Origin: Nakamurella aerolata
GTDB lineage: Bacteria; Actinomycetota; Actinomycetes; Mycobacteriales; Nakamurellaceae
Assembly (NCBI RefSeq): GCF_013002705.1
Contig: NZ_JABEND010000005.1
Location: forward strand, 62,001-126,000
DNA: 64,000 nucleotides
Direction: 5' to 3'
Below, one piece after another: positions 6,619-21,977 of the stretch. The position numbers were made by a program, and so were the translations under genes. Every line of letters starts with the position of its first letter. Within the stretch, counting starts at the first letter, position 1. The notes beneath the pieces are model-generated. The model was not told the DNA's origin, searched no databases, and saw only the letters and a list, made by a program, of their open reading frames with translations.

Positions 6619-6667
6619 CTGAGTGCGGGTCTCGGGTGCAGGTCTGGAATGCAGCCGGGGCACTCAG
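6619..6667. terminator. Inverted repeat between convergent gluD and GTPase gene
   Basis: An 8-bp perfect inverted repeat (CTGAGTGC ... GCACTCAG) spans the 47-base gap between the gluD stop and the convergent GTPase gene, whose stop codon lies inside the right arm. It could act as a bidirectional terminator. The loop is long (33 bases) and there is no T-run. Confidence 0.35.
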
Positions 6668-8391
6668 CCGGCGGCTTCGGCGAGCGCCGCGCGCACCTGC
6701 CGGTAGTCGTCCAGTACCTGCGCGACCGGAGCCAGCACCCGTTGCTGCGCAAAGCCTTCCAGTCGTTGCTGCAAGACGCGCTCGGCGCGGTCCCGGCGCC
6801 GCCTGGCACCCACCCCGATCAGCGGGCGGCAGATCGCCGCGGTGAGCAGCCCGGCTATCGCTCCCCCGGCCAGCAACACCGTCGGCCACGGCAGCGGCCC
6901 GAGGTAAGGGGTATCCGGCTGCGGCATCTTCAGCCAGCCGAGCACCATCAGCACCACCAGCCAGACCAGCCCGGCCGCCGCCGCGGCGGCGAACAGCCAC
7001 TGCAGCAGCCCAACCAGCCGCCACCACAGCGGCCGGCGCAGGCCGAGGTCGGTGCCGGCCACCACCCGGTCCAGACCGTCCAGAACGTCGGACTGCGGCG
7101 GCCGCGCGGCCCGCTGCACGGCGCCGGCCCAGCGCGGTGGCAGCCCGGCAGCGGCGGTGTCACCCACCCGCCGGCCGGCCAGCTCCAGTTCGGCCAGCGC
7201 CGCCTCGCTGGGCGGCGGCAGCGAACTGCGGGCGGGGGTGGCCGGCGCGGGCTCGCCGTCGGCCCTCGGCTGCTGGGTGACGGCGCCGAACACGCCGGCG
7301 AGTTGCCCGGTCGGGCCCAACCGCAGCCGCCGCAACGGATCAGGACGGAAGCGCCGCAGCCATCTGGTGAACGGCCAGCCCACCGCGCCGGTGGCGTCGC
7401 GCCGGTAGCCGGCCTCCACCGCGGCGAGCACCGTCGGCACCCCGGCGGCGTTGCCCAGCGCCCGGCTGAACCCGGCGTCCTGGGCGACCCTGGCCACGTT
7501 CACCGGCTCCGCACCACGCCGGCGTTCCCGGCCGGCGTCGGTGGACCCGGCCAACTGCCGCGCGGCGGTCCGAACGTCGGCGGAAAGCCGTTGCAGGGTC
7601 GCGGTTCTGCTGGACACCACCCCGCCCAGCGCCGCCCGCAGCTCAGCGATGCCGGCGCCGGTGACGGCCGACACCGGCAGCACCGTGGCGTTCGGCAGCC
7701 CGTCGGCGCGCAGCAGCCCGGTGAGGTCTTTCAGGCAGGCCTGCAACTCGTCAGGGGTGAGCCGGTCGGCCTGGTTCAGCACCACGATGGTCACCGCATC
7801 GTGCCCGGCGAGCGGCTGCAGGTAGCGGCGGTGCAGCGCCGCATCGGCGTACTTCTGCGGGTCGGTGACCCAGCAGAACGCATCGACCAGCTCGATCAGC
7901 CGTTCCGCCTCCGCCCGGTTGGCGGCCTCGGTGGAGTCGTGGTCCGGCAGATCGAGCAGCACCAGCCCGGCGAGCGCAGGGTCAGCGCGGTCCGCCGGCA
8001 CCTGATGCCAGGTCGGCACCTGCAGCCACCGCAGCAGCGCGGACGGATCGCTGACCGGACCGTCCGGCTCGCCCTGCGGCGGCCACAGCACGGCGCTGGC
8101 CACCGAGGTGATGGGCCGACGGATGCCGACCTGCGACAGCGGCGCGCCGGCAATCGCGTTGAACAGACTGGACTTTCCGCTACCGGTGGCACCGGCGAGC
8201 GCCGCAACGGTCCGGTCGCCGGTCAGCGCGAGTCGCGCGGCCGCCTTGTCGACCAGCCGCCGGGCGGCATCGGCCGGCCCCGGCTCCAGTCGGTCCCCAC
8301 CCAGTTGCACGGCGGTCTGCAGCGCGGCCATCCGGCGCTGCAGACCGGCGATGTCGATGTCGCCAGCTGACCGCCTGCGGCTGAACATCAT
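6664..8391 (-). CDS. Dynamin/YfjP-like membrane GTPase (second of pair)
   Basis: A 575-residue GTPase of the YfjP / bacterial dynamin-like group. G1 is GATGSGKSSLFNAI near residue 67, G3 is LLDLPDHDS near 147 and G4 is VLNQADRL near 201. Two hydrophobic segments follow near residues 450-520 (WLFAAAAAAGLVWLVVLMVL and VLLAGGAIAGLLTAAI), so the C-terminal part is membrane-bound, as in bacterial dynamin-like proteins that remodel membranes. Its ATG overlaps the stop of the upstream GTPase gene by four bases (ATGA), which implies coupled translation and a heteromeric pair, as for Streptomyces DynA/DynB. The cellular role is not known from the sequence. Confidence 0.8.
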   Translation of the reverse strand: MMFSRRRSAGDIDIAGLQRRMAALQTAVQLGGDRLEPGPADAARRLVDKAAARLALTGDRTVAALAGATGSGKSSLFNAIAGAPLSQVGIRRPITSVASAVLWPPQGEPDGPVSDPSALLRWLQVPTWHQVPADRADPALAGLVLLDLPDHDSTEAANRAEAERLIELVDAFCWVTDPQKYADAALHRRYLQPLAGHDAVTIVVLNQADRLTPDELQACLKDLTGLLRADGLPNATVLPVSAVTGAGIAELRAALGGVVSSRTATLQRLSADVRTAARQLAGSTDAGRERRRGAEPVNVARVAQDAGFSRALGNAAGVPTVLAAVEAGYRRDATGAVGWPFTRWLRRFRPDPLRRLRLGPTGQLAGVFGAVTQQPRADGEPAPATPARSSLPPPSEAALAELELAGRRVGDTAAAGLPPRWAGAVQRAARPPQSDVLDGLDRVVAGTDLGLRRPLWWRLVGLLQWLFAAAAAAGLVWLVVLMVLGWLKMPQPDTPYLGPLPWPTVLLAGGAIAGLLTAAICRPLIGVGARRRRDRAERVLQQRLEGFAQQRVLAPVAQVLDDYRQVRAALAEAAG

Positions 8392-10559
8392 CGGCCGGTA
8401 CCGCCCTCGCCGGGTGCGGCGGCGTTCGGACCGGGCTCGGACCTGCTGCGCCGGAACCAGCGGCGCCGCGGCCGCTGCGGCTCCGGCGCAGGGGCGGGCG
8501 TCCGGTCCGGTGGCCGGTAGCCGCCGCCGATGCCGGCCAGCAGACTCCGGTCCCCGGCTCCGCTGCCGGTGTCGGTGCCTGCGGTGGGCTCGGCCGGGAG
8601 GCTGCTGGCGAGCTGGCGGGCAATGTCGTCGGCGGCGCCGCGCAGGCTCGAAGCCGTTGGGCCGGAACCGATCCGGGTCAACACGGTGTCGAGCCGGGTG
8701 CGGTCGATCGCCAAGATCTGGTCGGCGCGGTCGGACAGGTCCTTGCGGGCGGACTGGACAAGGGTGCGCACCGCCTGATCACCGAACACCGCCTCCAGCA
8801 GGCGCTGCGCCAACACCGCGGTGCCGCCGGCGATGCCGATCTCGGCGCCGGACAGGCCGGCGGTCTGCGAGAAGGTGACCAGCATCAGCGCGACGCCGGT
8901 GCCGTTGACGCCGTAGGAGAGAATCCTTGCCGCGGTGCGCTTTTCCTTACCCTCGTCGCTGACCATGGCGAAGACGTCGGCCTGCCAGTCGCGGACCGTG
9001 CGCGACACCCGTTCCAGCAAACCCGGTGCCGTCCTTGCGATATCGGGGTGTGCCGCGAGCACGCTCGCCCCGCCGGGCAGCTGCTGCCAGCGGCGGGCCA
9101 CCTCGTCGGCGGCCAGCTCGGCCTGCCCGGCGATCAGCTGCTCCACCCCGGACTGCAGCGCCTGCCCGACCTCTTCGGCCTGCCGGGGTTTGCCGGTGAC
9201 GGCCGACACGATCCGGTCGCGGATCCGGCCGATCCTTGATTCAAGGTTCCGCATGAACTCGCCGGTGCCGAGGAACTCCTGCCAGCGCGCCAGGACCTCG
9301 GTCCGCAGCAACGAGCCGTCGGCCAGTCCCTGCGAAATGCGTTGCTGGGCTACGGTGTAGACCTCGTCGACCTGGGCGCCCAGCGCGGCAACGGCCTGCT
9401 GCTGGTGGTCCACCGCACCAGCCAGCTCGCGGGCCCGCCGGCTCAGCGCCTCCACCGCCCCGGACAGCGTCTGCCGGACCACGGCCTGCCGGGTGACGGC
9501 GTCGTGAGCCAGCGCGCCGAGCCAGTTCTTGAGTGGCTGCACGGCCGGTGGCGGCAGCAGACCCTGTTCGTTGGGCGCGGTCTCCGGCACAACGAACAGG
9601 GGTGACCCACCCAGCCCACGCTCGGCCATCATGGCGTGCAGGTGCCCGGCCACCTCGTCGACGGCGTCGGGTGGCACCCGATCGAGCACCAGCGCGACGG
9701 CCGCCTGCCGGGCGGCGGCGCCGGCGAGGAAGTCCCACGGCACCGCGTCGGCGTAGCGCGCGGCGGTGGTGACGAACACCCACAGGTCGGCGGCGGCGAG
9801 CAGTTGGCTGGCCAGCGCCCTGTTGCTCTCCACCACGCTGTCGATGTCGGGGGCGTCCAGCAGGGCCAGCCCGGGCGGCACCGCCTCGGTCGGGATCAGC
9901 TGCAGCGCGGTGATCGGCGCGTCCGCGGCCAGCTCGACCGGAAAACTGGACCTGGCCAACGACGGCAGGATGCGCGCCCGGCCGCCCGCCGTTGCGCCGG
10001 CCGGCCCGCCTGGCCCGGCCCGGTCGGGTGCACTTCGAGCCGGCGCCTTCTCGAGCTGAGCGCCCGCTGGCTGTGGGTTCGCTGTCTGTGCGTTCTGCTG
10101 CTGCGGTGCCGGCCGCCGCGGCGCCTGCTGCTGATGCTTCGGATCCGGCGCGCCGCCCTGGTCCGCCGGTGCCGTGCGGATCTCGGCGAAATAGCCGGTG
10201 TCGGCCGGGTGGTGCACCAGCACGGGCGCTCTGGTGGTCGGCCGGATCACCGACGAGCGGCTCGCCGGGAAGCCCAGCAGCGAATTGACCAGCGTCGATT
10301 TACCGGCCCCGGTGGAACCGCCGACCACCGCGAGCAGCGGCGCGTCCACCGATTCCAGGCGCGGCAGCACATAGTCGTCCAGCTGCGCGAGCATCGCCTG
10401 GCGCTCGGCGCGGGCCGGTCCGGATCCGGACAGGTTGAGCGGAAAGTCCAACTCCCCCAGCACGGTTCGCAGCTGCTGCAGGCTGCCGAGCAGTGTTCCG
10501 CCCGGCGCGGCCAACGGGATCGGCCCGGTGGTGGCGTCACCGGTATGTGGAGTAGTCAT
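8388..10559 (-). CDS. Dynamin/YfjP-like membrane GTPase (first of pair)
   Basis: A 723-residue GTPase partner. I place the start at the ATG at 10559 (MTTPHTGD) because upstream codons have no conservation-like character; a longer frame reaches 10730. G1 is VVGGSTGAGKSTLVNSLLG and G3 is LLDAPDIDSVVESN, with a candidate G4 in VALVLDRVPPD. Between G1 and G3 lies a roughly 80-residue Gln/Ala/Pro-rich insertion (positions about 9960-10170), unusual for a GTPase switch region. A C-terminal hydrophobic region (GVALMLVTFSQTAGL and a Gly/Ala-rich helix) is followed by a Pro/Arg-rich tail. It is coupled to the downstream GTPase and probably acts with it at the membrane. Confidence 0.78.
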   Translation of the reverse strand: MTTPHTGDATTGPIPLAAPGGTLLGSLQQLRTVLGELDFPLNLSGSGPARAERQAMLAQLDDYVLPRLESVDAPLLAVVGGSTGAGKSTLVNSLLGFPASRSSVIRPTTRAPVLVHHPADTGYFAEIRTAPADQGGAPDPKHQQQAPRRPAPQQQNAQTANPQPAGAQLEKAPARSAPDRAGPGGPAGATAGGRARILPSLARSSFPVELAADAPITALQLIPTEAVPPGLALLDAPDIDSVVESNRALASQLLAAADLWVFVTTAARYADAVPWDFLAGAAARQAAVALVLDRVPPDAVDEVAGHLHAMMAERGLGGSPLFVVPETAPNEQGLLPPPAVQPLKNWLGALAHDAVTRQAVVRQTLSGAVEALSRRARELAGAVDHQQQAVAALGAQVDEVYTVAQQRISQGLADGSLLRTEVLARWQEFLGTGEFMRNLESRIGRIRDRIVSAVTGKPRQAEEVGQALQSGVEQLIAGQAELAADEVARRWQQLPGGASVLAAHPDIARTAPGLLERVSRTVRDWQADVFAMVSDEGKEKRTAARILSYGVNGTGVALMLVTFSQTAGLSGAEIGIAGGTAVLAQRLLEAVFGDQAVRTLVQSARKDLSDRADQILAIDRTRLDTVLTRIGSGPTASSLRGAADDIARQLASSLPAEPTAGTDTGSGAGDRSLLAGIGGGYRPPDRTPAPAPEPQRPRRRWFRRSRSEPGPNAAAPGEGGTGR

Positions 10560-14160: not shown

Positions 14161-15201
<1,041 letters not shown>

Positions 15202-15249
15202 GACCCACCCATGCCTTTCGTCTCACCCAGCGGTCGTCCCGCCGGAGCT

Positions 15250-15294
15250 TGGTCTGTTGAAGCCTGGTCTGGTGAAGCTTGGTCTGTTGAGGTG
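15250..15294. repeat. Three 15-bp tandem repeats in recA leader
   Basis: Three adjoining copies of a 15-bp unit (TGGTCTGTTGAAGCC, TGGTCTGGTGAAGCT, TGGTCTGTTGAGGTG) lie 49-93 bases upstream of the recA start codon and downstream of the predicted promoter, so they would be transcribed into the 5' untranslated leader. Confidence 0.85.
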
Positions 15295-15328
15295 TTGGTG
15301 TTCGAGTGCTGTTGATGTTGTGCTGCCG

Positions 15329-15351
15329 ACGCTAGATCCAGGCACCGACAG
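15329..15351 (-). promoter_or_regulatory. RecA-NDp (PafBC-type) promoter of recA
   Basis: On the minus strand the sequence reads CTGTCGGTG, 8 bases, then TAGCGT. The known mycobacterial RecA-NDp consensus is TTGTCRGTG-N8-TAnnnT, so all positions but the first match with exact spacing. It lies 128 bases before the recA start and points towards recA. In mycobacteria this promoter class is activated by PafBC after DNA damage independently of LexA; the regulator genes are not in this window. Confidence 0.8.
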
Positions 15352-15715
15352 TGGCGATCAACCTGCCAGGCATGTGGATGAATTTCCGGGGTGTGGATAA
15401 CCCGGCCCACGCTGTCGGACCCATCGGCTAGCGAACCGCTGGAAGCCGATAACCATTGCCGGACAACACTTCCGGTGCGTTCGGTGCGTTCACCGCCTGC
15501 GCTGCTGGCCTGCCGTGAGCTCACCGCCCGGTCCGATTCACCGAACGGATCGCTGCCGGGATCACCGAACGAAACCACCGACCGGAACCACCGAACACGG
15601 GCACCAGCTTAGCCGTACAGATGTTCGATCGACGGAGGTGCGGCGGCGTGTCTTGATCCGAGCCCGGCCGGCACCGTCGATCACGGAGACCGATGCGGCG
15701 GGGAGAGTTGTCCGG

Positions 15716-15925
15716 TCAGTCCGGCAGTCCGAACCGCAGCGCGGCGGGCACCTCGAACTCGCGGCACACCTGGGCCCAGATCTCGCGCGGATTGATGCCG
15801 GCCTCGATGGCCTGATCGGCGGTCAACCCGCCCAGCTCGCCGAACACGTGGTCCTTGGCCACCGATGGCGCCCGCCGGGGACCGAAGTACTCGTCCATCA
15901 GGGCCCTGAACTCGCTCAACCGCAC
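15716..15925 (-). CDS. DUF3046 family small protein
   Basis: A 69-residue protein that starts with GTG (VRLSEFRALMDEYFG) and contains the family features EFRALMDEYFG, a DHV segment, IEAGINPREIWAQVC and a C-terminal RFGLPD. Genes of this family stand directly upstream of recA across Actinomycetota (for example Rv2738c beside Rv2737c), and the order is kept here. The function is unknown; it is soluble with no membrane segment. Confidence 0.9.
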   Translation of the reverse strand: MRLSEFRALMDEYFGPRRAPSVAKDHVFGELGGLTADQAIEAGINPREIWAQVCREFEVPAALRFGLPD

Positions 15926-16050
15926 CCGTCGAGCCTACGCGGCGCTCCTACTGCTCCCACCCAGCCGGCGGGCAGCCGGCACGCTGGTTGCGACTGCGGG
16001 CTGCGGACTGCGGTTGAGAGCGGCCGGCGCTAGGGCCGTGGCGGCACCCC

Positions 16051-16076
16051 TGAGACCTGGGACTGAGACCTGGGAC
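16051..16076. repeat. 13-bp tandem duplication
   Basis: Two adjoining copies of TGAGACCTGGGAC occur just before a possible small membrane-protein gene. It is another instance of the short tandem repeats seen throughout this window. Confidence 0.7.
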
Positions 16077-16079
16077 ACT

Positions 16080-16187
16080 GTGCGGGTGGACAGTCTCGGC
16101 TTCGACTCGCCGCTGGTGCAGATCTTGACCGCACTTGCCCTTGTCGCGTTGCTGGTGCTGCTGATCCGCCAGTACCGCGGGAAGTAA
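16080..16187 (+). CDS. Possible small single-span membrane protein (35 aa)
   Basis: A short frame from GTG at 16080 (or 16086) encodes 33-35 residues: VDSLGFDSPLVQILT, then a hydrophobic helix (ALALVALLVLLI) and RQYRGK, followed by a stop. The profile of a short polar N-terminus, one membrane helix and a positive C-terminus is typical of small membrane proteins. No clear ribosome binding site is visible and I do not recognise a family, so the call is tentative. The rest of the 15926-16328 interval holds nothing else I can support. Confidence 0.35.
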   Translation: MRVDSLGFDSPLVQILTALALVALLVLLIRQYRGK

Positions 16188-16328
16188 GGCCCCAAGCACG
16201 GATCCGTCACGCCGCAGCGCACTGGAACGGCCACCGAAACAGCCATCGTGCTGGAGCGATGATCGTGCCGGAACGACCGGGGCCCGGCCGCGCCGACTGC
16301 TCGACCGCGCCGACTGCTACCGCTACTG

Positions 16329-18590
16329 CTATCGCGTCGGCTGCCCCGCGGGCGCCGACTGCCCCGCGCCCGGCGAATCCCCCGCCGGTGGTGACTGCCC
16401 CACTGGCTGTGACTGCCCCGCCGGTTGCTGACCGCCGGGTTGCGGCTGGCCCGGCACCTGCGGCGGCAGCAGCACGATCGCCACCGCCGCGGCCAGCAGC
16501 ACGGCCAGCGCGACGACCACCGCGATCCAGCGAGAGCGCTTGGCCGGGCCGGCCTGTCGATCCGGCTGGTCGGAGTCGTCGGCGGCTGCAGCCTTGTCAC
16601 CGGCCGACTGGCCGAACAGCTGCGCGAGCTGAGCGCGCGCCTGCTCCAGCGGCTCGGGTTCGGCTGCGTCCGCTGCCCCGACGACGCCGCGGCCAGGCCT
16701 GACCCGGCCAAGTTCGGGCGCTCCGGACGCCCGGCCCCCTGGTGCCCGCTGCCCGGGTGCCGGCTGCCACGGTGCCGGCTGCGCCTGACGCCCGCCCGCT
16801 GTCATCGGCCGCGCGGGCAGCGTTCCTCCCGGCAAAGAAGCAGACACAGCAGAACGCGAGGCGCCCGACGGCACCGCCGGTGGGGCGCCCGCCGACAACG
16901 GGGCAGCAGCACTCGAACGCGCGGCACTGTCGCCCGGCGACGGGGACGGTGAGGGTCGCGGCGATTCCCACGGCAGTGCTCGCTGCTGGCCCGGGGGCGT
17001 CGGCACGGGCTCGATCGGCGGCAACGCCGCCCCTGCGTCGGGCGCGTTCACTGCGCCCAACCGCTGCGCGTCACCCGACCGTTCACCCGCACCCAACCGC
17101 TGACCCTCACCCGCCCCGGCCGGCGGAACCGCACCCAACCGCTCACCCGCCCCCGACCGCTCACCCGCCCCGGCCGGCGGAACCGCACCCAACAGCTCAC
17201 CCGCACCCGACCGCTGACCTGCACGCACCGGCGGAACCGCACCCGGCAGCCGACCCGGACCAGCCGGCGGCGCCGCGCCCAACGGCTCGTCCCCGCCCGT
17301 CCGCTGCACCGAGCGGAAGTTCGGAACCGAATCGATCAGCCCACCCCCACCTCCGCCGACCGAACTCGCCCCGCCGGCGCCGGGAACGGAAGCGATCGGA
17401 GCGGCCTCAGGGGCGAACGGACTCGGCGCACCACCGGCGCCGTCGTGGCCGACCACCGCGCCGCCGGCCTGCACCGTCACCGCCTGCACCATCGCCGCGC
17501 CGTAGGCCACCGCGAGCTCGGGGTCCTCCTGGGTGACCGGCACCAGCGCGGTGCGGTCGGCGATCATCTTCGCCACCAGCGGAATGCGGCTGGACCCGCC
17601 CACCAGGTAGATCGCGCTGACCTCGGCACCGGACTCGGTGACGGTCCGGCGCAGGCTCGCCACCGTGCGGTTGAGCGCGGCGCGAATCAGGTTCTCCAGC
17701 TCGCCGCGGGTCAGCAGCAGATCGGAAAACGGTTCAGGCAAAGGGATCTCGGTCTGCGCGGCACGCGACAGCGTTTCTTTGCCGGCCCGCACGTCCTCCC
17801 GCAGACTGCGGGACGCCCGGCGGTCGGCGGCGGTCTGCGGCACGGCCATGGCCTGCCAGTAGCCGGGGTCGCGGGCGGCGATGTCGCGGCCGATCCGCTC
17901 CCAGATCAACTGGTCGAAATCAACACCGCCGACATCGGACAGGCCCCCCTCGGCGAGCACGGTGAGCCCGGAACCGGTGCTCTGCACAACGGCGGCGTCG
18001 AAGGTACCGCCGCCGAGGTCGTACACCGCCACCGCGTCGCCCTCGGGCAGCTCGTGGCCGGGAAGTGCCCGGAAGTTGGTGGCGGCGGCGATCGGCTCGG
18101 GGATCAGCACCAGCTCGTCCGGATCGGTCCACCCGGCGTCGGCCGCGGCCGCGCGCAGCACCCCGCGGCGGCGGCGCCCCCACTGCGCCGGGTGGGTGAG
18201 GTGCAGCCGGGCCGGCGGCCGCCCGTCCAGCATGGCCGCGGCGGCGGTCCGCACCCGCGCCAGCACCGCGGTGATCGCCTGCTGGACGGCGACGACGTCC
18301 GCGCCGAGTAGCAGCTCGACGTCGTCGATGCGGCGCTTGGGGTTCGGTTCGAACCGCTCGGGTGCCAGCCGGGCCAGCCGCTCGGCCTCCCGGCCGGTGG
18401 CCAGCGAACCGTCGTCGGCGAAGTAGACGGCCGACGGCATCATCCGCTGGCCGTCGAAGGCCACCACCCGCAACTCGGTGCCACCCAGCGCGGTGGGGGT
18501 CGCCAGCACCGCAGCGGTGTTGGAGGTGCCGAAGTCGACGCCGAGAACGGTGCCGGTGACCGGCTGTTCGGCGTCCGCAGCAGCGGAAAT
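16329..18590 (-). CDS. Membrane-anchored Hsp70-like ATPase without substrate-binding domain
   Basis: Actin-like ATPase of the Hsp70 family. Phosphate-1 is GVDFGTSNTA, phosphate-2 VYDLGGGTFD and adenosine motif YLVGGSSRIP. The DnaK substrate-binding domain is absent; instead there are about 300 residues of Pro/Gly/Ala/Arg-rich disorder with repeats such as GAGERSGAGERLGAVPPAG, one membrane helix (WIAVVVALAVLLAAAVAIVLL) and a Pro/Gln/Gly tail. The phosphate-1 motif lies upstream of the first ATG (18509) and no ATG, GTG or TTG exists between it and the in-frame stop near 18605; the best candidate is ATT at 18590 after AGGA. A start at 18509 would delete the motif. It lies 55 bases downstream of pspA, presumably in one operon. 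Confidence 0.8.
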   Translation of the reverse strand: MSAAADAEQPVTGTVLGVDFGTSNTAAVLATPTALGGTELRVVAFDGQRMMPSAVYFADDGSLATGREAERLARLAPERFEPNPKRRIDDVELLLGADVVAVQQAITAVLARVRTAAAAMLDGRPPARLHLTHPAQWGRRRRGVLRAAAADAGWTDPDELVLIPEPIAAATNFRALPGHELPEGDAVAVYDLGGGTFDAAVVQSTGSGLTVLAEGGLSDVGGVDFDQLIWERIGRDIAARDPGYWQAMAVPQTAADRRASRSLREDVRAGKETLSRAAQTEIPLPEPFSDLLLTRGELENLIRAALNRTVASLRRTVTESGAEVSAIYLVGGSSRIPLVAKMIADRTALVPVTQEDPELAVAYGAAMVQAVTVQAGGAVVGHDGAGGAPSPFAPEAAPIASVPGAGGASSVGGGGGGLIDSVPNFRSVQRTGGDEPLGAAPPAGPGRLPGAVPPVRAGQRSGAGELLGAVPPAGAGERSGAGERLGAVPPAGAGEGQRLGAGERSGDAQRLGAVNAPDAGAALPPIEPVPTPPGQQRALPWESPRPSPSPSPGDSAARSSAAAPLSAGAPPAVPSGASRSAVSASLPGGTLPARPMTAGGRQAQPAPWQPAPGQRAPGGRASGAPELGRVRPGRGVVGAADAAEPEPLEQARAQLAQLFGQSAGDKAAAADDSDQPDRQAGPAKRSRWIAVVVALAVLLAAAVAIVLLPPQVPGQPQPGGQQPAGQSQPVGQSPPAGDSPGAGQSAPAGQPTR

Positions 18591-18645
18591 GGTTGGGGTC
18601 CTGATCGATCAGCTCACGCCACGCCCGACCGCGTCGCCGTCCCGA

Positions 18646-19467
18646 TCAGCCCTGCTGGTTCGGCTGCGCGGCGGGCTTGGTGACGTTCGGGGTGGCGGCG
18701 CCGGCGGTGCCCTGGTCGATGGACCGTGGCTGCTGCGCCGACAACTCGGGGTGCAACTGCGAGCGCAGCTGCTCGAGCCGGGAGGCACCGGCCATGTCCA
18801 GCGTCGACTTCTGCACCTCCATCATGCGGCCCTCGACCGAGTTCTCGGCCAGCTCGGAGGCACCGAGCGCATTGGCGTAGCGGCGTTCGATCTTGTCCCG
18901 CACCTCGTCGAGCGACGGGGTGTTGCCCGGGGCCGTCATGCCCTGCATCTGCTGCATGGACGCCGAGATCTGCTCCTGCATCTTGGCCTGGTCCAGCTGC
19001 GACATCAGCCTGGTGCGCTCGGCCAGCTTGGTCTGCAGGTTGGTGGCGTTCTGCTCGACCGCCTTCTTGGCCTGCTCCGCGGCCTGCAGGGCCTGATCGT
19101 GCATGCCCTTGAGGTCTTCCATCTGCTGCTCGGCGGCGACCAGCTGGGTGGCGAAGGTGGTGGCGGTCTGCTCGTACTGGGTGGCCTTGTCGGTCTCGCC
19201 CTTGGCGCGGGCCTCGTCGGCCAGCACCAGCGCCTGCCGGGCCGAGGCCTGCAGCCGCTCGACGTCGCCCATCTGGCGGGTCAGCTTCATCTCCAGCTGG
19301 CGCTGGTTGCCGATGACGTTGGCGGCCTGCTGGCTGAGCGCGGCGTGCTGCCGTTGGGCGTCCTCGATCGCCTGCTGGATCTGCACCTTCGGATCGGCAT
19401 ACTCGTCGACCTTGGACGAGAACAGCGCCATCAGGTACTTCCAGGCTTTGACAAACGGGTTGGCCAT
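18646..19467 (-). CDS. pspA: PspA/IM30 family envelope-stress protein
   Basis: A 273-residue, almost entirely helical protein of the PspA/IM30/Vipp1 (ESCRT-III-like) family. It begins [21 protein letters not shown], has the [15 protein letters not shown] segment, long coiled coils (residues 25-190) and an Ala/Pro/Gln tail. Such proteins bind and stabilise stressed cytoplasmic membranes. The ATG is preceded by GAGAGGA. It leads a two-gene operon with the membrane-anchored Hsp70-like ATPase, which suggests the two act together on the membrane. Confidence 0.92.
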
Positions 19468-20000
19468 GTCTTTTCAAGTCCTCTCGGCAGCCCCGAACTC
19501 CGGCGAGCTCAGGAGACAGCATTCACCACCCGCTGACGGGTGTCCGCTGCAATACGGTTCCATGGTGTCAGGTAGCAGGCCCAGCTTCCACCCCGGGCCA
19601 GCGGTTTCGGGGAAACTTCGGGGAACTGGTCCGGGCTCACCCTGGCCGGTCGGGCCCGCCGGGGCCGTCCGGGCCGGGGGCCGTCCCGTTCGATCGGCTG
19701 GTCCCGCCCCGGTGCCGTCCCCGCTGCACGCTGCGTTCCGGCACTCCCGGCTCCCGCCCCGGCCTGCCGGACGCCGGTCACCACCGCTGCCCGTTGACCC
19801 GCGCCGGTCCCGCTGCGGCCGGGTTCGCGCTGCCGGGCTGCGCCGCCGGAGACCACCCTGACCTGCGCCCGATCGATACAGTGTCGTGTTGGGCCGGCTG
19901 GTTGGGCCGTCAGGTGGGGCCCGCAGATGGGGCGCTCGGGTTGGACCGTCCCGATACCAGCCAGCAACAGCACGCCGAAGAGAAGTCCGAGAGGGAACGC
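19468..20000. other. Divergent promoter region between pspA and VWA gene
   Basis: A 533-base GC-rich stretch separates the divergent pspA and solute-binding/VWA genes and must hold both promoters. I see no convincing reading frame with gene-like composition and no clear promoter boxes. A strong ribosome binding site (GAGAGGGA) ends the region before the ATG at 20001. Confidence 0.5.
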
Positions 20001-21977
20001 ATGGGCCGGCACGCCGCCTCCGAAAGCCGCCGCGGGATCGCTGCGTGGCCGTTGGTCGTGGTCGGCGTTGTGCTGATTCTGGCCGCAGCGACCGTGGTGT
20101 ACGTGCTGGCGGTCCGCGGCAGCGACAAGGCCGACGCCGCGCCCTGCTCAGGGTCGGCGCAACTCGGCGTGCTGGCCGGGCCGGGCAGCGCCCCGGCCGC
20201 CGGTGCGCTGGTGAAGGCCTACAACGCGACCAACCCCAATGCCAGATCCACCTGCATCACCGGCGCGGTGGTCGACGTTCCGGCCGGCAGCACCGCGGCC
20301 GAGGCGCTGGCCAAGGGCTGGACGACGGCGACCGGCAGCCCGGCGGTGTGGCTGACCGACGATCCGTCGCAGCTGACCGCGGTCGAGCAGCGGACACCCG
20401 CGCTGACCGCCGGCCGCGCCAAGGACCCGGTCGCCACCTCGCCGGTGCTGCTGGCCGCGCCGGCCGGTGCCGGCATCGAGAAGGTGGCCTGGAACTCGCT
20501 GCTTCCGGCCGGCTCCGGCGCACCGGCGATGACGGTGCCGAACCCTGCGACCAACCGGGCGTCGGCGTACGCGCTGGAGTCGGCGCTGGCGCCCGCATCG
20601 GGGACGCTCACCGCCGCCGGGGTGCGGGCGGCGCAACCGAAGCTTGCGGGCCTGCGGTCGGCCGCTGCCGCCGCCCCGGCCGACACCGCGGCCGCGCTGG
20701 CCAGCCTCACCGCCGGCGGTGCACAGCCGGCGCCCGTCCCGGTGACGGAGGCCGATCTGGCCACCTACAACACCGCGCACTCGCAGAGCCCGTTGACCGC
20801 CGTCTATCCGACCGGCCGCACCGCCGGCGACGCGATGTACGTGGTCCCCCTGGGCGGCGAGTGGGTCGATTCCACCCAGTCGGCCGCGGCGTCCGGGTTC
20901 GCCTCGTTCATCGAATCCGCGGCCGGCAAGAAGGCGCTCGCCGCCGCGCATTGGCGGGTGCCGGGCGGCCCGGCGACCACCGGCGTCGGCATCACCCCGT
21001 CCACCGAAGTGCAGGCGCTGCCGCCGGCCGCGCCGGATGTGGTCACCGCGCTGGCAGCGGCGATCGGGTACCCGGCGGACGGCGGTTCACCGTCGGCGAC
21101 CGCAGGGTCGTCGGCGGCGCCCGGCACCGGCGCAGCCAAGGCGCCCACTGCCGCCGCGACAACCGCGGCCACCAGCCCGGCCACCCCCAGCAGCACGCCC
21201 CCGCCGAGTGCGGCACCCACCAGCACGGCAGCCGACACCACGGCACCCGGCACCACGGCACCCGACACCGCGGCGTCCGGCACCGGCGGGGGCGCGACGG
21301 TCACCCCCCTGCCCCCGCAGACCGTCCCGGCCAAGCCCGCGCCGGCAAAACCGGCACCCGCAAAACCGTCACCGGCACCACCGGCCCCGGCCGAGCCCGC
21401 GACGATTCTGCTGCTCGACACCTCGAGCGCCTGGGACGTCACCGTTGACGGGCGGTCCCGCATGCAATGGCTGCAGGAGGCGGTGTCCGGCGCACTCAGC
21501 TCTGCCGGCAACCGGTCGGTCGGGCTGTGGACCACCAGCAGCCGGGACGACGCCGGCTACGCCGAGGTGGTTCCGGCCGGGCCGATGAACGATGCCGTCA
21601 ACGGAACTCAGCGCTCCACCGCGATCGGCACCGCGGTGGCCGAGCTGACCGCGGGCGGCGGGAACCGGACCTACGCCGCCGTGCCGGCGGCACTGCGCTG
21701 GTTGTCCGAGCATCCGGTGGACGGGCGGCCGCAGCGGGTGATCCTGGTGACGGCGAACACCGACAACACCCCGGACACCTCACGGGCCCAGGTGATAGCT
21801 GCGGTGCAGGAAGCCATTGCCGGACAACAGATCCGGCTCGACATTGTCGGCGTCGGCGAGAACGCACCCGACCAGGCGCTCACCGACCTTGCACAGGCCG
21901 GCGGCGGCAGCTACACCGACGTGCAGCAGACCCCGAACCTCGGTGGCGCGCTCACCGAGCTGGTCAACGCCACCTGA
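20001..21977 (+). CDS. Membrane-anchored solute-binding and VWA-domain protein
   Basis: A 658-residue exported protein. The start is the ATG after GAGAGGGA. An N-terminal membrane anchor (LVVVGVVLILAAATVVYVLAV) is followed by a region resembling an extracellular solute-binding domain (about residues 50-370), an Ala/Thr/Pro/Ser-rich linker with PAKPAPAKPAPAKPSPAPP-type repeats, and a C-terminal von Willebrand A-like domain starting ILLLDTSSAWD. The MIDAS motif DxSxS is degenerate (D-T-S-S-A), so metal binding may be altered. Similar two-domain proteins are common in Actinomycetota but of unknown function. It is transcribed away from pspA and ends at a strong hairpin. Confidence 0.78.
   Translation: MGRHAASESRRGIAAWPLVVVGVVLILAAATVVYVLAVRGSDKADAAPCSGSAQLGVLAGPGSAPAAGALVKAYNATNPNARSTCITGAVVDVPAGSTAAEALAKGWTTATGSPAVWLTDDPSQLTAVEQRTPALTAGRAKDPVATSPVLLAAPAGAGIEKVAWNSLLPAGSGAPAMTVPNPATNRASAYALESALAPASGTLTAAGVRAAQPKLAGLRSAAAAAPADTAAALASLTAGGAQPAPVPVTEADLATYNTAHSQSPLTAVYPTGRTAGDAMYVVPLGGEWVDSTQSAAASGFASFIESAAGKKALAAAHWRVPGGPATTGVGITPSTEVQALPPAAPDVVTALAAAIGYPADGGSPSATAGSSAAPGTGAAKAPTAAATTAATSPATPSSTPPPSAAPTSTAADTTAPGTTAPDTAASGTGGGATVTPLPPQTVPAKPAPAKPAPAKPSPAPPAPAEPATILLLDTSSAWDVTVDGRSRMQWLQEAVSGALSSAGNRSVGLWTTSSRDDAGYAEVVPAGPMNDAVNGTQRSTAIGTAVAELTAGGGNRTYAAVPAALRWLSEHPVDGRPQRVILVTANTDNTPDTSRAQVIAAVQEAIAGQQIRLDIVGVGENAPDQALTDLAQAGGGSYTDVQQTPNLGGALTELVNAT

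Follow-up and report, generated by a model that had tools for sequence, protein, structure and literature searches.

A membrane-anchored Hsp70-like protein without a substrate-binding domain, encoded beside pspA in Nakamurella aerolata: a possible switch for envelope machines

We describe here a locus of the actinobacterium Nakamurella aerolata (source genome 4.35 Mb), in which pspA, the gene for a PspA/IM30 protein of the bacterial ESCRT-III family, is followed on the same strand by a gene for an Hsp70-like protein (hsp70 in the following). The locus lies in a window of 64,000 nucleotides, that is, the whole stretch of DNA that was analysed (contig NZ_JABEND010000005.1, positions 62,001 to 126,000). 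The distance from pspA to the start of hsp70 is 55 nt; a VWA-type gene diverges from the pair, and a DUF3046 gene and recA lie downstream of it (Table 1).

Table 1. Features of the pspA-hsp70 locus, in positions of the window
Feature	Position	Strand	Evidence or remark
pspA (PspA/IM30, bacterial ESCRT-III family), 273 aa	18646..19467	-	Pfam PF04012 (PspA_IM30), 139 bits, E 2.3e-40
Hsp70-like gene, ~753 aa	16329..18590	-	PF00012, 108.9 bits; probable start ATT 18588-18590
Possible ribosome-binding site of the ATT start, AGGA	18599..18602	-	read from sequence; 8 nt upstream of ATT
Hsp70-type nucleotide-binding domain, residues ~14-372	17475..18551	-	AlphaFold2, DnaK alignment, Foldseek
P1 GVDFGTSNT	18516-18542	-	motif in nucleotide-binding domain
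P2 DLGGGTFD	17997-18020	-	motif in nucleotide-binding domain
Adenosine motif LVGGSSRIP	17580-17606	-	motif in nucleotide-binding domain
Disordered G/A/P-rich linker, residues ~375-645 (~270 residues)	16656..17468	-	pLDDT <50
Single transmembrane helix, residues 683-707	16470..16544	-	hydropathy peak 3.26; helix in AlphaFold2 model
P/Q/G-rich tail, 46 residues, where orthologues have a folded domain	16332..16469	-	alignment
DUF3046 gene	15716..15925	-	PF11248, 96.3 bits; downstream neighbour with recA, by synteny
recA, anchor of the neighbourhood	14161..15201	-	tblastn identity 89-94% in 16/16 congener loci
Divergent VWA-type protein, N-terminal hydrophobic stretch	20001..21977	+	VWA_3, 26.4 bits, just under cut-off 27

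The Hsp70-like protein keeps the Hsp70 nucleotide-binding domain (NBD) and its fold, and, as a preliminary description of this DNA had proposed, other material stands in place of the substrate-binding domain (SBD). The Pfam HSP70 match covers only profile positions 109-375 of 599. An AlphaFold2 model built on a 20-row alignment places the NBD at residues ~8-372, a block with pLDDT mostly >85, and all 50 matches listed by Foldseek for this model are Hsp70-family chains, the best of them (E 1.4e-26) to the NBD of DnaK. When aligned to DnaK, the NBD retains the KRR, EP and DLGGGTFD segments, which have catalytic roles. Beyond the NBD, pLDDT is <50 over residues 375-452 and 454-645, followed by a helix at 647-669, the transmembrane (TM) helix and a disordered tail. 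No SBD or lid was found either by Pfam, whose match ends where this region begins, or in the model, where residues 375-645 are nearly all at pLDDT <50; structure prediction, named in the preliminary description as the way in which a DnaK-type SBD might come to light, thus revealed none. The some 300 disordered residues, membrane helix and extracytoplasmic tail of that description are all present, with a somewhat shorter disordered part and with a tail that is a remainder at the place of a domain folded in orthologues.

The protein therefore shares with DnaK/Hsp70 (PF00012) the NBD, its fold and the phosphate motifs, and is unlike them in having no SBD or lid and in being anchored to the membrane via a long disordered linker. 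It belongs to a broad actinobacterial family with a common plan: a cytosolic Hsp70 NBD, a disordered tether, a TM helix and often an extracytoplasmic domain. An ordinary extra chaperone of the DnaK type would agree with the HSP70 Pfam match, but was rejected because the SBD and lid are missing, and the NCBIfam equivalog and subfamily models for DnaK and HscA reach just 112-120 bits against cut-offs of 620 or more (DnaK equivalogs ~112 against 648 and more), which makes this explanation very improbable. Weaker actin-fold matches over the Pfam cut-off of 27 bits were seen for FGGY_C (36.4 bits) and MreB_Mbl (28.1 bits). An identity as MreB was rejected, given the far higher HSP70 score and an NCBIfam MreB score of 37.5 bits against a cut-off of 293.

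The start of hsp70 is likely the ATT listed in Table 1, because the frame is open upstream as far as a TGA at 18609-18611, with neither ATG nor GTG nor TTG between this stop and the P1 loop, and because AGGA lies 8 nt upstream of the ATT. The GTG at 18509, given as the start in the list of open reading frames, falls within the phosphate-1 region and was rejected, as it would cut into it. A sequencing error is a possible alternative to an ATT start. The gene does not appear to be a wreck, since the codons of its NBD keep a coding bias (GC 0.77/0.53/0.91 at the three codon positions) and changes occur at only 5 of 75 otherwise invariant columns, comparable to other divergent rows.

Past the TM helix, orthologues carry an outer domain in which cysteines and a tryptophan are conserved; it is apparently present twice in L032 and L034. 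The AlphaFold2 model of this domain from N. endophytica has a mean pLDDT of 82, and VIA-align ranked the extracellular domain of PknH first (4esq; Z 8.5, 126 residues, rmsd 3.4 A), ahead of an unrelated Thermotoga protein (1vr8, Z 8.3) and TiME (Z 8.2), with LpqN, Apa and MTC28 at lower ranks; this comparison covers the families listed by VIA-align, and Z values of this size may stem from an arrangement that is common. Foldseek gave nothing at an E of 0.001 or less and Pfam nothing over cut-off for the outer domain, and the antibody light chains found by a profile search against PDB sequences (E 0.014 and worse among the matches listed) were taken as noise. The modelled outer domain is thus perhaps PknH/TiME-like in fold. 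PknH-type receptor kinases likewise join a cytosolic enzyme to a TM helix and an outer domain; unlike them, the present family carries an Hsp70 NBD in place of a kinase, the window copy is without the outer domain, and the fold match is borderline and invisible by sequence. A search of window positions 15001-17000 by tblastn, using 17 outer domains and 6 Nakamurella C-termini and no composition correction, found no coherent remnant of the domain. The best of the scattered pieces (E 8e-5) is at ~16423-16746 of the opposite strand, inside the low-complexity end of hsp70. A frameshifted outer domain downstream of 16329 was rejected, as tblastn gave scattered pieces only. By these comparisons, the window copy appears to have dropped the outer domain and left the 46-residue tail in its place.

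Judging from strand and spacing, pspA and hsp70 likely form an operon. A promoter scan of positions 15900-20200 found none, and the sole terminator-like site in this interval lies inside hsp70 and is at chance level; the operon named in the preliminary description is therefore a probable one. In the window pspA stands directly between the VWA gene and hsp70 and has no clgR next to it; ClgR was not searched for elsewhere in the genome. The divergent gene, described earlier as encoding a membrane-anchored solute-binding/VWA protein, is real and has the N-terminal hydrophobic stretch, but its VWA match falls just short of the cut-off and no solute-binding Pfam family matched it. A relative of this gene adjoins pspA in 17/17 Nakamurella loci, which makes it a steadier neighbour of pspA than hsp70.

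Of the 61 genomes of the order that were searched, 54 (counting that of the window) have a pspA match, and 53 pspA loci besides the window were compared (16 from Nakamurella and 37 from other families, some cut by contig ends). In 6 of the 16 Nakamurella, or 7/17 with the window, pspA is followed in the same orientation by a gene with an Hsp70 NBD. In four of these (G013, G005, G001 and G007) the order is pspA-pspM-hsp70, the intervening gene being PspM by NCBIfam NF047839 (over cut-off in 3/3 tested), while in G016, G014 and the window hsp70 comes directly after pspA. PspM is present genome-wide in 14/17 Nakamurella and was not found in the window genome (95% complete), G016 or G014, which are exactly the three in which hsp70 abuts pspA. 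As a separate observation, these 14 occurrences (loci L033 and L035-L047, over the NF047839 cut-off) lie beyond the range of PspM given in the available text of PMC11237479, where it is restricted to mycobacteria and corynebacteria.

The Hsp70 subfamily (E up to 1e-40) occurs in 9/17 Nakamurella genomes at one to three copies each, and family members at E up to 1e-55 occur in 41 of 101 sampled genomes of the order. Eight of the 12 loci of Nakamurella paralogues (L085, L088, L089, L090, L093, L094, L095 and L096) have dynamin-like genes within about three genes, and all eight also have a GrpE-like gene, which passes the Pfam cut-off in six and falls short of it in L085 and L090. At L092 a dynamin match lies ~6.6 kb away, and L086, L087 and L091 have no dynamin-like gene nearby. 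A whole-genome search with Dynamin_N gave strong matches (E <1e-9) in 10/17 Nakamurella, namely all nine with the subfamily and one of the eight without it (G015); the exact probability of this overlap is ~4e-4, with relatedness ignored. Going by gene order, this linkage supports a role of the paralogues around membrane-remodelling proteins. The strongest functional lead of this study is a recurring set of genes in which an SBD-less Hsp70 with a TM anchor is accompanied by a GrpE-like protein and by one or two dynamin-like GTPases; it is seen in the eight Nakamurella loci and in L101, L122, L123, L128 and L135, mostly of Micromonosporaceae. The window itself holds a pair of dynamin-like (Dynamin_N) GTPase genes at 6664-8391 and 8388-10559, beside an RNase Y-like gene and downstream of recX. 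This pair was considered as a partner of hsp70 and was examined only via the genus-wide Dynamin_N search.

We propose, with a probability of roughly 0.35, that these proteins are membrane-tethered SBD-less Hsp70 switches serving envelope machines, and that one member is probably co-expressed with PspA. The Hsp70-like protein would be an ATP/ADP conformational switch held at the membrane, and the surface of its NBD, not a peptide groove, would dock on an envelope machine and change its assembly state. Different members may serve different machines, such as dynamin-like GTPases together with a GrpE-type exchange factor, or ESX; in Nakamurella, the member probably co-expressed with PspA would have been inherited at the recA locus, and in the clade of the window, where PspM was lost, it may have replaced PspM as the membrane partner of PspA. 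The points for such a switch are the intact NBD fold and nucleotide motifs, the position of the gene relative to pspA, the PspM pattern and the dynamin/GrpE linkage of the paralogues. In a more sweeping version, which seems doubtful to us, the SBD-less membrane Hsp70s of actinobacteria have become switches dedicated to polymers that remodel membranes: some branches would serve dynamin-like GTPases and have a GrpE of their own, and in Nakamurella one member would serve PspA/ESCRT-III, having displaced PspM.

Several observations, given here and in the two paragraphs that follow, weigh against the proposed switch. Ten of the 17 Nakamurella have pspA with no hsp70 beside it, and hsp70 adjoins pspA in 0/37 loci of other families, one of which (L055) is uninformative as it ends 0.3 kb past pspA; in L056 a 30%-identical Hsp70 lies 6.4 kb upstream of pspA on the opposite strand. 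Outside Nakamurella, both genes could be located in 19 genomes, and in all of these they lie on different contigs or at a distance of >50 kb (nearest 53 kb, in G027; the assembly of G023 is badly fragmented). Unlinked genes in relatives, which the preliminary description had named as a refutation, are thus half borne out: the pair is linked in part of one genus, and within the tested set the linkage is confined to Nakamurella. Since the three PspM-less genomes form one clade (support 100/100), the loss of PspM is a single event, in assemblies 95-98% complete. A signature of co-change in the PspA of this trio was rejected, as nothing clear emerged: 10/170 otherwise invariant columns have changed, against 6/166 in each of two comparison trios. 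No GrpE or J-protein gene is among the identified neighbours of hsp70 in the window (pspA, the VWA gene, DUF3046, recA and recX), although no J-protein search was made. In the wider family, neighbours were counted at 80 named loci from fetched flanks, with Nakamurella dynamin queries; dynamin-like genes occur in just nine (L101, L116, L119, L122, L123, L128, L129, L135 and L168), seven of which have GrpE-like matches (not L119 and L129). Six of the nine (L101, L119, L122, L123, L128 and L135) group together in a separate clade, mostly tail-anchored, whose 14 rows come largely from Micromonosporaceae and Glycomycetaceae; its other eight rows have no dynamin genes. EccC genes lie near 9/80 loci, with EccD in eight of the nine, so that most of the 80 have neither a dynamin-like nor an EccC neighbour; the 37 control pspA loci have no dynamin-like genes. 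Family members near ESX (EccC/EccD) genes were observed in Pseudonocardiaceae (L136, L139-L144, L147 and L165) and in Nakamurella (L093 and L094). Finally, a contact between the Hsp70-like protein and PspA is conjectural.

In a tree built from 98 NBDs, the seven pspA-linked proteins and one paralogue (L087) form one clade (8 rows, support 100/99), whose sister is a clade of 20 rows from Pseudonocardiaceae (98/94). In view of this grouping with Pseudonocardiaceae, it was rejected that the pspA-linked gene derives from those Nakamurella paralogues that are linked to dynamin genes. In the sister clade, hsp70 lies immediately upstream of recA at seven loci (L099, L100, L102, L103, L104, L105 and L107, from Amycolatopsis and Actinokineospora); DUF3046 is in between in 5/5 inspected, and the 20 kb fetched contain no pspA; the remaining members are not recA-adjacent or are on short contigs. 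In all seven sister-clade genomes examined, five of them with a recA-adjacent hsp70, pspA is present outside the hsp70 locus (in A. roodepoortensis ~62 kb from it, apparently on the same contig). DUF3046 and recA lie downstream in 17/17 Nakamurella (DUF3046 is inverted in L045), and pspA stands upstream of DUF3046-recA without hsp70 in ten Nakamurella and in six loci of three other families, there 3-8 kb upstream. The most economical reading of these gene orders would be an old shared neighbourhood at recA, followed by losses and moves, and because hsp70 and pspA share it, their adjacency is a weaker sign of function. Both hsp70 and pspA-pspM may thus be old residents upstream of DUF3046-recA, with an inherited adjacency and incidental co-transcription, and hsp70 may act independently as an envelope sensor or switch, with a partner other than PspA. 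This explanation is favoured by the sister-clade loci, by the placement of pspA elsewhere in those genomes and by the loci with pspA alone; it leaves unexplained why PspM is absent exactly where hsp70 abuts pspA (one event, though), and why the Nakamurella paralogues are linked to dynamin-like genes. We hold it at somewhat less than even odds, and consider it and a family of membrane-tethered switches about equally likely.

The same tree bears on whether the window gene is drifting toward loss. Its end branch is 0.76, against 0.04-0.31 in the other pspA-linked copies, making it the fastest evolving of them. This longest branch of the clade, the ATT start in place of a standard codon, the lost outer domain, the low-complexity linker and the 10/17 congeners without hsp70 beside pspA would all agree with decay, yet 753 codons are open, the nucleotide motifs are intact and the coding bias of the NBD is strong, and we regard decay as improbable.

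Three side observations concern the recA neighbourhood. Several families of the order share the gene arrangement pspA(-pspM)-DUF3046-recA (window 14161-19467, L058, L063, L071, L072, L081 and L084). The mycobacterial psp operon, too, is near recA, and the recurring order could explain how DUF3046 entered the mycobacterial PspN. In Actinokineospora enzanensis (L103:7980-11812) a tandem hsp70 pair lies upstream of DUF3046-recA, and a tiny reading frame for a TM protein is seen in the window at ~16080-16187 (+), on the opposite strand beside DUF3046, with similar ones in L040 and L044.

The chloroplast Hsp70s that act on VIPP1 are soluble, full-length proteins with an SBD and a J-protein partner, and CGE1 of the chloroplast system is a GrpE-type factor (compare the GrpE-like genes of the dynamin cassettes); the protein described here has no SBD. 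According to the available text of PMC13051332, HSP70B-CDJ2-CGE1 and cpHsc70-1 act on VIPP1, a relative of PspA, so that an Hsp70 acting on the PspA polymer is not far-fetched. The likeness lies in an Hsp70-type ATPase paired with a PspA/Vipp1-family polymer, here a pairing of genes; by this analogy, PspA is a plausible client, and since there is no SBD the mode of binding would have to differ. The mycobacterial clgR-pspA-pspM-pspN operon, as given in the available parts of PMC11237479, likewise has pspA followed first by the gene of a membrane protein and next by a DUF3046 gene. It differs in that hsp70 of the window occupies the place that pspM has in 14/17 Nakamurella, and in that pspA is flanked by the VWA gene and hsp70, not by clgR. 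SBD-less HSP70 with GrpE beside GTPase-centred genes has been reported for actinobacterial conflict systems in the accessible portions of PMC7159879; those are GAP1-N2 neighbourhoods, "dynamin" occurs nowhere in the main text, and PspA was not looked for there. DnaK duplicates are treated in PMC11019930, as far as its available text goes. By term search, the main texts of PMC11237479 and PMC9239133 contain neither "Hsp70" nor "DnaK", and an Hsp70-like gene beside pspA is not described in the available parts of PMC7159879, PMC11019930, PMC8281802, PMC8195603 and PMC12636044. Neither an Hsp70 adjoining pspA nor a cassette of Hsp70, GrpE and dynamin genes turned up in the open-access literature; as this takes in no supplements and few subscription papers, absence is not proven.

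If the Hsp70-like protein does act on PspA, it would supply the ATPase that bacterial PspA has been lacking, and would correspond to Vps4 and to the Hsp70-Vipp1 pair of chloroplasts, but work via the ATPase domain alone. A dedicated, membrane-tethered Hsp70-type ATPase would be a testable candidate for this role. For the family as a whole, SBD-less Hsp70s encoded with dynamin-like and GrpE-like genes would mean that an Hsp70 ATPase needs no peptide groove in order to serve envelope machinery.

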